Assembly: GCA_913062925.1 (NCBI GenBank)
Contig: CAJXWJ010000012.1
Coordinates: 1-60,006, forward strand
Source: an uncultured Pseudorhodobacter sp.
GTDB lineage: Bacteria; Pseudomonadota; Alphaproteobacteria; Rhodobacterales; Rhodobacteraceae
Direction of reading: 5' to 3'
DNA: 60,006 nt
Below are positions 40,656 to 51,669 of this stretch, in pieces; the stretch's first letter is position 1, and every line of letters starts with the position of its first letter. Under the pieces are notes generated by a model that saw only the letters and a list, made by a program, of their open reading frames with translations, searched no databases and was not told the DNA's origin. Both the position numbers and the translations under genes were made by a program.

Positions 40656-44887
<4,232 letters not shown>

Positions 44888-44895
44888 ATCCCATT

Positions 44896-44951
44896 TTGTT
44901 CTCATATGTTCTCATAAAGTTCTTTACAGACTTCGAATCATATGAGAACAA
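44896..44951 (+). promoter_or_regulatory. Inverted repeat and GTTC half-site array
   Basis: TTGTTCTCATATG (44896-44908) and its exact reverse complement CATATGAGAACAA (44939-44951) flank a 30-base loop. Inside and around are GTTC at 44898, 44908 and 44919 and GAAC at 44946: four half-sites. The array may let LexA or another factor bind cooperatively, or form a hairpin in the leader RNA. Confidence 0.6.
44908..44922 (+). promoter_or_regulatory. LexA-type SOS box (GTTC-N7-GTTC)
   Basis: GTTC (44908-44911), exactly seven bases (TCATAAA), then GTTC (44919-44922) is the direct-repeat SOS operator established for Rhodobacter and Caulobacter LexA. It is 21 bases after the recG stop and 58 bases before the start of the small membrane protein gene. 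Seen directly in the sequence; regulation is inferred. Confidence 0.75.
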
Positions 44952-44979
44952 TAGGGCAACACAGCAAATGGAGGTCGCC

Positions 44980-45102
44980 ATGATTACCGAGATTACCGAA
45001 ATCCTGCACCGCTCGCGCAAGGCCATATTGGTTGATTCTGTCGGGGTGGTGTCCCTATTTGTTCTGCTTTTCGCCGGATTGGGAATGTCTGGCACGCTTT
45101 GA
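44980..45102 (+). CDS. Small single-pass membrane protein (40 aa) downstream of an SOS box
   Basis: ATG at 44980 follows GGAGG with 5-base spacing; an ATG at 44968 overlaps that ribosome site and is unlikely. The 40 residues start MITEITEILHRSRKAILVDS, a basic amphipathic stretch, and end with one hydrophobic helix (GVVSLFVLLFAGLG) and MSGTL. An N-in orientation is expected from the positive charges. Caulobacter SidA is a small SOS-induced inner-membrane protein that blocks division, and this one has a similar design and control, but I see no sequence match I can claim. Placed right after recG. Real gene likely; function open. Confidence 0.7.
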   Translation: MITEITEILHRSRKAILVDSVGVVSLFVLLFAGLGMSGTL

Positions 45103-45123
45103 GAACTGCCTGCGGTCTTGTTG

Positions 45124-45186
45124 ACCCGAACTGTCGCACCTGTCCCCAACGGGGTGCGGCGCGGCTTTGCTGCCGCCTCTTCGGGT
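45124..45186 (+). ncRNA. Candidate branched structured RNA or 3' UTR
   Basis: ACCCGAA (45124-45130) pairs with TTCGGGT (45180-45186) and encloses two hairpins: CGCACC / GGTGCG (45135-45140 with 45153-45158, containing CCCC-AAC-GGGG) and GCGGC / GCCGC (45161-45165 with 45172-45176). This is a three-way junction, followed 15 bases later by a strong terminator. It could be a small RNA or the stabilised 3' end of the small membrane protein mRNA. It lacks the conserved SRP GGAA-loop sequence and does not match any RNA family I know. Confidence 0.4.
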
Positions 45187-45201
45187 AAGAACGCCCCTTT
45201 G

Positions 45202-45236
45202 CGCCGCCATCTGCCAAGATGTGCGGCGTTTTTTTT
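45202..45236 (+). terminator. Strong intrinsic terminator after the SOS-linked gene
   Basis: CGCCGC-CATCT-GCCA-AGATG-T-GCGGCG followed by a T8 run (45229-45236). It stops plus-strand transcripts before the convergent IscU-like gene. Confidence 0.9.
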
Positions 45237-45668
45237 CTAAAGCCCGGTCAGCGCCTCGGCCGTTGCCTCAAGTGTCAGCAAGATCGAGGCGTGACGGTTC
45301 TTATAGTCGCGTGCAGGGATCAGCACTTCCAAGCCGTCGAAAGGTGCGGCTGGCACCGGACCGTTGTCTTTCAACATGGCGCGAAGCGCATCGCGGCCTG
45401 CTTCCACCTCGGCAAGGCTGCGGCCCAGAATGGCGCCCCCCACCACGGCTGCCGCGGCCTGACCTAAGGCACAGGCCTTCACATCTTGGGCAAATGCGCT
45501 GATCCGGCCATTCTCAACCCGCAGATCGACCGTCACCGTCGATCCGCACAGCGGCGAGCGTTTGCGCGCGCTTCCCATTGGTTCGGGCAGGCGGCCCAGA
45601 TGCGGAATATCGGCGGCCAGTGCAAGGATACGGCCGGAGTAGAGTTTGACAAGATCGCTATCGCTCAT
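45237..45668 (-). CDS. IscU/NifU N-terminal-like Fe-S scaffold protein
   Basis: 143 residues from ATG 45668. It resembles the IscU fold (DLVKLYSGRILALAADIPHL, SPLCGSTVTVDLRVENGRIS, DVKACALGQAAAAVVGGAIL). IscU has three cluster-binding cysteines; here only the first two equivalents (LCGS and ACALG) are seen, and the C-terminal one is missing. It may be a derived scaffold or a carrier. Divergent from hisI across 61 bases and convergent with the SOS-linked unit. Confidence 0.78.
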   Translation of the reverse strand: MSDSDLVKLYSGRILALAADIPHLGRLPEPMGSARKRSPLCGSTVTVDLRVENGRISAFAQDVKACALGQAAAAVVGGAILGRSLAEVEAGRDALRAMLKDNGPVPAAPFDGLEVLIPARDYKNRHASILLTLEATAEALTGL

Positions 45669-48962: not shown

Positions 48963-51669
48963 CTTCGCCTTGTTCCGCGACCCGCGCGACCGAGACAACC
49001 TCTTCGCCCTTGCCGGTGTTGAACACCTTGACCCCACCCGCCGAACGCGAGCGGAACGAGATTTGCTCGACCGGCACGCGAATGGATTGGCCGGTCGAGG
49101 TGGCAAGCATGATCTGATCGGTCAGATCAACTGGGAAGGATGCGACCAGCGGCCCGCCGCGCATCGCGCCATCCATCGCCTTCACCCCCATGCCGCCGCG
49201 CCCGCGCACCGGATAATCGTGGCTGGAGGACAGTTTCCCAGACCCCGAGGTGGTGATGGTCAAGATCAGATCTTCGGCCGCAGACATCTCGGCATAGCGG
49301 TCTGGCGACAGCTGGCCGGTGGCGGTGCCTTCGTCTTCGTCATCAGACTCTTCCTCGACCACGCCCGCCATCAGACGGCGCTGCTTAAGATAAAGCGCGC
49401 GCTCGTCGGGATCGGCCTCGAAATGCCGAATGATCGACATCGAGACGACCTTATCTTCGGCGCCCAAGCGAATACCGCGCACGCCCGTCGAGCCACGCGA
49501 TTTGAACACGCGAATGTCTTGCGTCGAAAAGCGGATCGCCCGCCCGCCTGCCGTCACCAGCATCACATCGTCGTTTTCATCGGCAATCGCCGCGTTCACC
49601 AAGAACACGCCTTCGGGCAGGTTCATCGCGATTTTACCGTTGCGTTTGACGTTAACGAAATCAGACAGATCGTTTTGACGCACATCGCCGTCAGAGGTGG
49701 CAAAGACGATTTGCAGATTGTCCCATTCGGCTTCCGGTGCATCCACGGGCATCAGGGCTGCAATGCTAACCCCTTGTGCGATCGGCAGAATATTGACCAT
49801 CGCCTTGCCCTTGGCGGTGCGACCCGCCAGCGGCAGGCGCCAGGTTTTCATCTTGTAAACCATGCCATCGGTGGTGAAGAACAGCAGGTTGGTATGGGTA
49901 TTGGCGACAAACAGCGTGGTGACCACGTCGTCTTCTTTCGTAGCCATCGAGGACAGGCCCTTGCCGCCGCGATTTTGGCTGCGGAATTCGGCCAGATTGG
50001 TGCGCTTGATATAGCCGCCCGAGGTGATGGTGACCACCATATCTTCGCGCTCGATCAGGTCTTCGTCGTCCATATCGCCGGCCCAATCGACGATTTCGGT
50101 GCGACGAGGCACGGCAAAAGCGGCTTTCACCTCGCGCAATTCGTCCGAGATGATCGCCATGATGCGGTCGCGCGAGCCCAAAATCGCAAGGTAATCTTTG
50201 ATCTTTGCCGCAAGCTCTTGCAGCTCGTCGGTGACTTCCTTGACCCCCAAAGCCGTCAGACGTTGCAGGCGCAGATCAAGGATCGCGCGGGCCTGAATTT
50301 CAGACAGGTTATAGGTGCCATCTTCATTCACTGGATGAGAAGGGTCGTCTATCAGCTTGATATAAGGGATAATTTCGCCCGCAGGCCAGCGCCGTGTCAT
50401 CAGCCTCTCACGCGCTTCGGCAGGGTCTGCCGAAGACCGAATGGTGGCCACAACCTCATCGACGTTCGACACCGCAACCGCCAAACCACACAGAATATGG
50501 CTGCGTTCGCGGGCTTTGCGCAGCTCGAACGCGGTGCGGCGTGCAACAACTTCTTCGCGGAAGGTGATGAAATGGCGCAGGAAATCGGCAAGTGTCAGCT
50601 GTTCGGGCCGCCCACCATTCAGCGCCAGCATGTTGCAGCCAAACGAGGTCTGCATCGGCGTAAAGCGGTAAAGCTGGTTCAGCACCACATCCGCCGTGGC
50701 ATCGCGCTTCAGCTCGATCACCACGCGCACACCGATGCGGTCGGATTCGTCTTGCACATGCGCGATGCCTTCGATGCGCTTGTCGCGCACGGCCTCGGCG
50801 ATGATCTCGATCATCCGCGATTTGTTCACCTGATAGGGCACTTCGTCGATGATGATCGCAAAGCGGTCCTTGCGAATTTCCTCGACCCGAGTTTTGGCGC
50901 GGATCACCACCGAGCCGCGGCCCTCAAGATAGGCTTTGCGCGCGCCAGAGCGGCCCAAAATCGTCGCACCGGTCGGGAAATCGGGGGCAGGGATGATCTC
51001 CATCAGCTGTTCGATGCTGATGTCGGGGTTTTCAATCATCGCAAGCGTGCCGTCGATGACCTCGCCGAGGTTATGCGGCGGAATATTGGTGGCCATGCCA
51101 ACAGCAATACCGCCGGCGCCATTGACCAACATATTGGGAAAGCGCGCTGGCAGAACCGTGGGTTCGCGGTCTTTGCCGTCGTAATTGTCTTGGAAATCAA
51201 CGGTTTCTTTGTCGATGTCGGCCAGCAGAAAGGCGGCGGGCTTGTCCATCCGCACTTCGGTATAGCGCATCGCAGCGGCGGTATCGCCATCCATCGAGCC
51301 AAAGTTGCCTTGCCCATCCAACAGCTTCAGGCTCATCGAAAACGGCTGCGCCATCCGCACAAGCGCGTCATAAATGGCACTGTCGCCATGCGGGTGATAC
51401 TTGCCCATGGTGTCGCCAACCGGGCGCGCAGATTTGCGGTAGGGTTTGTCGTGGCCGTTGCCAGATTCGTGCATCGCGAACAAAATCCGGCGGTGCACGG
51501 GCTTAAGCCCATCGCGCAGATCGGGAATGGCGCGGCTGACGATCACGCTCATCGCGTAATCCAGATAGGCCGTCTTCATCTCGGAGGAGATGTCGATCTG
51601 CGGGCCATCATGGGCCATGCGAACGGGTTTATCGTCGGTTGCGTCTGGGGTTTCCGGAGTGTCGGTCAC
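48955..51669 (-). CDS. gyrA: DNA gyrase subunit A
   Basis: 904 residues from a GTG at 51669. Breaks and rejoins DNA to introduce negative supercoils with GyrB. The breakage region contains [20 protein letters not shown] (Ser and Asp at the positions equal to E. coli 83 and 87, i.e. the quinolone-sensitive residues) and the catalytic Tyr in AMRYTEVRM. The C-terminal half has the six-bladed pinwheel with GyrA-box-like stretches such as [10 protein letters not shown] and [10 protein letters not shown]. An acidic tail ends the protein (RVAEQGEDE). The long open frame on the opposite strand is only its shadow. Confidence 0.97.

Follow-up and report, generated by a model that had tools for sequence, protein, structure and literature searches.

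Background

Blocking late division with small membrane proteins has been described as an SOS strategy of wide occurrence; for several of these proteins the predicted target is FtsW, in models that are not high-confidence (PMC13396833). In Caulobacter, where GTTCN7GTTC is the LexA motif, cells deleted for lexA are reported to filament because of SidA (PMC12700426), described as an inner-membrane protein of 29 residues that interacts with FtsW (PMC4211646). The DNA considered here (hereafter the window) is a stretch of 60,006 nucleotides from an uncultured Pseudorhodobacter sp. of the Rhodobacteraceae (GCA_913062925.1, contig CAJXWJ010000012.1). Few marine bacteria are as common as the Rhodobacteraceae, a family that also includes phototroph models; at title and abstract level we found no SOS division inhibitor of the family in the literature, nor did we find literature joining SidA, Rhodobacter and division inhibitor. 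An initial annotation of the window had proposed that a 40-residue membrane protein encoded behind recG is under SOS control and is a candidate SidA-like inhibitor of division.

Layout of the locus

The features of the locus are as follows (coordinates in the window, strand, description).

40686..42806, +, ligA, NAD-dependent DNA ligase (NCBIfam NF005932/TIGR00575, over cut-off)
42803..44887, +, recG (NCBIfam NF008164, 1105 bits against a cut-off of 785)
44896..44951, no strand, 13-bp inverted repeat with arms TTGTTCTCATATG (44896-44908) and CATATGAGAACAA (44939-44951)
44898..44901, +, extra GTTC half-site, N6 before the forward box
44908..44922, +, forward LexA-type box GTTC-N7-GTTC, abutting the predicted −35
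44923..44928, +, predicted −35 TTTACA (promoter scan; TTTAC in the consensus of loci, TTGAC in some relatives)
44946..44960, − (GTTG-N7-GTTC on the − strand), reverse LexA-type box GAAC-N7-CAAC, overlying the predicted −10
44947..44952, +, predicted −10 AACAAT, spacer 18
44970..44974, +, ribosome site GGAGG, 5 bases 5′ of the ATG
44980..45102, +, gene of the putative 40-residue membrane peptide (40 aa and stop; conservation, third-position bias, AlphaFold2 helix)
45201..45236, +, probable intrinsic terminator (29-nt hairpin, then a T run; fold −20.5 kcal/mol)

The coordinates given in the initial annotation are correct, with the end of recG at 44887, 92 bases between it and the ORF, and the ORF and GGAGG site at the positions listed above, and so is its description of ligA and recG as coupled repair genes, which overlap by 4 bases and are both confirmed by NCBIfam. 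The terminator hairpin comes from a fold computation and is absent from the output of a simple scan; beyond it lies a convergent gene with a sub-cut-off match to SufU. Because the peptide gene has a predicted promoter of its own and is followed by this hairpin, it looks like a separate, monocistronic transcription unit. The TTTACA-18-AACAAT element (44923-44952) is the sole promoter-like site in 44850-45300, where shuffles give 0.2.

Both elements of this promoter lie under LexA-type boxes. The GTTC half-sites at 44898, 44908 and 44919 form GTTC-N6-GTTC-N7-GTTC, the last two making the exact box at 44908-44922 that had been recognized from the outset, and on the other side of the promoter GAAC at 44946 and CAAC at 44957 form a second, inverted box that the initial annotation overlooked. 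It had listed further GTTC/GAAC half-sites and a 13-bp inverted repeat; these are present in the gap, and the repeat more plausibly belongs to two facing LexA-type boxes over the promoter. About 0.002 GTTC-N7-GTTC boxes are expected by chance in the 92-base gap, compared with 1.22 in the whole window, which holds two. The other one (49043-49057, − strand) lies inside a large − strand ORF read by eye as gyrA and looks like a chance match. Genome-wide, 53 matches to GTTC-N7-GTTC against 246 for the same pattern backwards indicate that the box alone is not enriched, and the composite operator occurs in this genome only at the peptide gene.

Conservation of the peptide gene

All 15 genomes of the same genus carry the ORF, its own included. 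Of 198 family genomes, 82 were recovered by a single-sequence search at E <= 0.1, and a 38-row profile at the same threshold found the ORF in 354 of 394 (own included), a sample with about one genome per genus; 16 of these 354 matches have a best E above 0.001, among the matches listed. Restricting the sample to good assemblies gave 315/347. An order-level sample yielded 137/149 at E <= 0.01, all 149 listed genomes belonging to the same family. At class level, profile matches were obtained in 6 of 289 genomes, four of them from the family (its own among these) and two from other families, in a sample whose family members are uncounted; the two other-family matches are weak and partial, one having an internal stop, and no credible relative outside the family was found by profile search among these 289 genomes. 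Comparing relatives in 1162 non-independent pairs gives 13784, 6327 and 24541 differences at the first, second and third codon positions; with over half of them at third positions, the ORF varies as a coding gene does.

Protein statistics were computed for 157 distinct members out of 183, with lengths of 36-46 residues kept. Of these 157, 151 have 39-42 residues, conservation is highest at D19 and G22 (98%), L34 (98%), L26 (95%) and L30 (94%), and the last eight residues are uncharged in every member. A hydrophobic stretch covers residues ~20-37, and AlphaFold2 models of 30 sequences give one helix over residues 2-39 (mean pLDDT 77, rising to 91 in residues 21-30), from which we infer a single helix that would insert into the membrane. 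The one membrane helix of the initial annotation is thus predicted by the models as well; its basic N-terminus is not clearly so, as the first 20 residues of the 157 members average only +0.4 net charge. A conserved helix face that might act as a docking surface was considered and dropped, since the moment at 100 degrees was not significant for either the membrane part (p = 0.30) or the N-terminal part (p = 0.15). Five members, the window's own among them, had no match in Pfam, SulA (PF03846) included, and five had no significant match in NCBIfam, where one of the five weakly matched Csx18 (E 0.016, 15 bits against a cut-off of 50). In PHROGs, a single weak match was hit by 2 of 38 members (best E 0.036). 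A phage or plasmid origin was also set aside, as the one 39-aa member searched (from L132) had no match in phage and plasmid records.

Conservation of the operator

The operator was sought within 150 bases 5′ of the ORF at loci chosen by protein alone. Set A comprises 44 loci from the genus and single-sequence searches, the window among them, and served to build the profile; set B comprises the 80 kept of 103 confirmed loci, which are mutually close, from search records that include Ruegeria pomeroyi, Phaeobacter, Leisingera, Sulfitobacter, Tritonibacter, Roseovarius and Rhodovulum. The two sets share three identical loci. GTTC-N7-GTTC is present upstream in 44/44 loci of set A and 78/80 of set B, the two exceptions (L221, L223) having a spacer of 6 bases, and the reverse-strand box, as GAAC-N7-SAAC, in 42/44 and 77/80. 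The strict form GAAC-N7-GAAC occurs in only 3/44 and 2/80 loci, the usual end being CAAC, one base off consensus. Where both boxes are present, their distance from start to start is 38 bp in 40 of 42 (A) and 74 of 75 (B), and the third GTTC, which completes the N6/N7 triple, is kept in 39/44 and 71/80.

Shuffling the upstream DNA in two-base blocks left the forward box in a mean of 0.10 (A) and 0.14 (B) loci, which, set against 44/44 and 78/80, rules out a chance box. No box was found in the 150 bases downstream (44 loci of A, 79 of B), nor in a control stretch mainly within recG (42 and 80 loci). In an upstream consensus of 122 loci, the conserved islands are the operator and the promoter, and the leader is not conserved.

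The converse search showed the operator to be almost confined to this gene. Run independently of the protein, it found the composite pattern GTTCN7GTTCTTN{17,24}GAACAA in 152 of 198 family genomes, and the reversed control gave 0 among the matches listed. The first 61 listed matches minus the window's own supplied 60 operator-chosen loci, 13 of them identical to loci of set A or B (seven to set A). In 59 of the 60, an ORF matching the profile (E < 1e-3) lies 22-71 bases downstream; at the sixtieth (L138) the operator pattern recurs by chance in a genome that also carries the real one. Second composite-operator matches were also seen at G020:C56:195587 and G059:C1:1741258, where the spacer sequence differs.

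A RecG match ends 5-182 bases upstream in 56 of the 60 operator-chosen loci, and recG is immediately upstream in 79 of the 80 loci of set B. At L145 only 111 bases precede the operator, and the last codons there, LISVG and stop, are compatible with a RecG end. Operator and ORF stand together away from recG at L135 (G189), at L152 (G145; no RecG match in the 445 bases upstream) and at L263 (Roseovarius aestuarii, 2001-2117), where both are kept beside other genes. This persistence at three loci indicates that operator and ORF form one movable unit independent of recG, and it rules out that the operator serves the regulation of recG rather than of the peptide.

The initial annotation had staked its reading on conservation of the ORF and of the box between related genomes, and both are conserved across the family. 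A conserved gene with a conserved operator is nearly certain. A chance ORF behind a chance box, for which it can be said that a single GTTC-N7-GTTC is common, is refuted by all the conservation results for ORF and operator alike.

Genomes without a profile match

Forty genomes of the family sample gave no profile match. Among the 20 of these that were listed, 14 have recG, four have an Mfd-type match only and two have nothing. The four (G028, G043, G073, G109) are 97-99% complete, and since a RecG C-terminal query matches only Mfd-type helicases in them, recG seems to be missing together with the peptide gene. In nine of the 14 recG-bearing genomes, recG is followed by a box and a small, divergent ORF (L160, L161, L163, L165, L167, L168, L171-L173; the L163 ORF fell below the hydrophobicity filter and was read by hand), which would bring the total to 363/394, or ~92%, if the weakest profile matches are counted. 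Strict GAAC-N7-GAAC is found at the divergent loci L161, L165, L171, L172 and L173, and at L161, L171 and L173 the inverted box, in this strict form, is the only one. L171 and L173 are AT-rich stretches in which the lone inverted box stands before a divergent hydrophobic ORF of 36-40 aa.

The other five of the 14 recG-bearing genomes have neither box nor ORF, and several gene-less genomes keep lexA, so the peptide gene is dispensable. No lexA match (E <= 1e-5) was found in 3 of 9 gene-less genomes (G022, G043, G181) versus 1 of 26 gene-bearing ones (G047), with G022 being 82% and G047 74% complete and the peptide gene of G047 divergent. For these groups, chosen after the fact, the Fisher p is 0.044, or 0.010 if G073, whose lexA match is partial and under the cut-off, is counted as missing; the comparison omits G072, G136 and G169, the first of which has lexA and a divergent ORF. 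Such counts lend weak support to co-loss of the peptide gene with lexA.

LexA and probable SOS control

The genome carries lexA, and copies of the exact box precede the lexA match (by 34 bases), the uvrA ORF (by 61) and an ORF for a uvrD/pcrA-type helicase (by 34), with starts as predicted. The spacer-composition filter excludes GC-rich boxes, that of lexA among them, and the lexA box was taken from coordinates. At L072 (G000:C20:45530), a box lies at the start of a polymerase IV-like ORF (ImuB-like by eye) and inside other predicted ORFs; it was not counted as an SOS promoter, and it is possible that it marks the SOS site of a mutagenesis operon. We found no mention in the literature of the three box sequences or of AAAGTTCTTTACA, and the words recG and sidA are absent from the main text of the Dinoroseobacter LexA paper (PMC6473078).

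LexA control of the peptide gene is, judged from these motifs, very likely. A regulator other than LexA that reads the facing GTTC/GAAC sites of a conserved small gene could account for the composite operator being unique to the peptide gene in its own genome, and an N6 spacing to a third half-site together with an inverted layout is unusual for LexA. We consider it very improbable, because the forward box has the sequence of the Caulobacter motif cited above (PMC12700426), because the same box precedes lexA and uvrA in this genome, and because the inverted site is exact GAAC-N7-GAAC at L165 and such a site is kept alone at L171 and L173.

Proposed function and alternatives

On balance we lean towards the peptide being an SOS checkpoint factor of the Rhodobacteraceae, a membrane helix held off by LexA that delays division when released. 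Two LexA dimers on the facing boxes would cover the −35 and the −10/start region and keep the promoter tightly off; upon DNA damage, RecA would trigger LexA cleavage and the 40-residue peptide would be made from its monocistronic unit. The product would insert into the inner membrane as one helix, amphipathic in its N-terminal part and uncharged in its C-terminal tail, and this helix may bind the machinery of the septal wall, with FtsW or its partners the most likely target, so that the last division step is delayed until repair is done, as with SidA in Caulobacter. With both promoter elements under facing boxes, repression should be tight and release sharp, which fits a product harmful when leaky; among SOS genes, a double operator suggests a product that is costly when it leaks. 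The division block itself, drawn by analogy, is likely only; sequence comparison ties the peptide to none of the known division inhibitors. Pfam SulA scores over cut-off in none of 149 family genomes, with one sub-threshold match containing stops.

Two other readings share the SOS control and the membrane helix. Since function is read from control and size only, the peptide might be a small SOS membrane regulator with a target outside division, such as a membrane protease, an envelope stress sensor, a repair-protein anchor or gene transfer agent release, and its site behind ligA-recG is compatible with a role in repair. That the gene has a predicted promoter and terminator of its own, and persists where recG is not adjacent, counts against a recG-linked role, and the member compared with phage and plasmid records has no relative there; we regard such a regulator as unlikely. 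DinQ has been described as an SOS-regulated toxic single-helix peptide and TisB as a dormancy-inducing membrane toxin, the latter also under SOS control, and the size, hydrophobicity and operator of the Rhodobacteraceae peptide would all suit an SOS-induced toxin of this type that lowers the membrane potential and yields dormant or persister cells. Its predicted leader, however, has only ~20 bases with a plain GGAGG site, and the lack of leader conservation in the 122-locus consensus, where operator and promoter are the conserved islands, gives no sign there of a type I antitoxin RNA. A toxin is a still less probable reading than a regulator of another target.

Significance and comparison with known systems

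Being near-universal and under a rigid double operator, the peptide is a candidate division inhibitor for the Rhodobacteraceae. We would give even chances to the fuller claim that it is an unnamed, family-wide SOS division-checkpoint peptide, of an evolutionary origin separate from SidA, SulA and YneA, with five GTTC-type half-sites and facing boxes at a fixed 38-bp offset that bracket one promoter, and that it would be the missing division inhibitor of this family. If true, the membrane peptides thought to converge on late division gain a further, unrelated member. The operator could also be a natural SOS reporter for the Rhodobacteraceae.

The SOS-controlled, SidA-like protein of the initial annotation stands in part, as to the small membrane protein, the fixed-geometry operator, the presence of lexA and the shared box. 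SidA-like is fair as an analogy rather than as a statement of homology, a likening by description from operator type, size and one helix. SidA of Caulobacter crescentus is described as an alphaproteobacterial, LexA-controlled, very small protein of the inner membrane (PMC4211646); the Rhodobacteraceae peptide, whose predicted control and location match, differs in its 40 aa, its putative amphipathic N-terminal part and its double facing operator, and in being near-universal across its family and usually behind recG. DidA, also of Caulobacter, is a small damage-induced division inhibitor with a single helix, but it has 71 aa, is SOS-independent (DriD) and interacts with FtsN (PMC4211646). YneA (Bacillus), SosA (Staphylococcus) and ChiZ (Mycobacterium) are described as membrane proteins that inhibit late division and are induced by SOS or damage, with LysM domains in YneA and ChiZ and an extended helix in SosA (PMC13396833), whereas the Rhodobacteraceae peptide has no outer domain. 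TisB and DinQ resemble it as small SOS-linked membrane peptides, yet these are toxins with RNA antitoxins, and none is apparent here. SulA, a soluble FtsZ inhibitor, would share its role alone, if the division reading is right. The peptide appears to represent a new protein family, lineage-wide and of a known functional kind, under an unusual operator.
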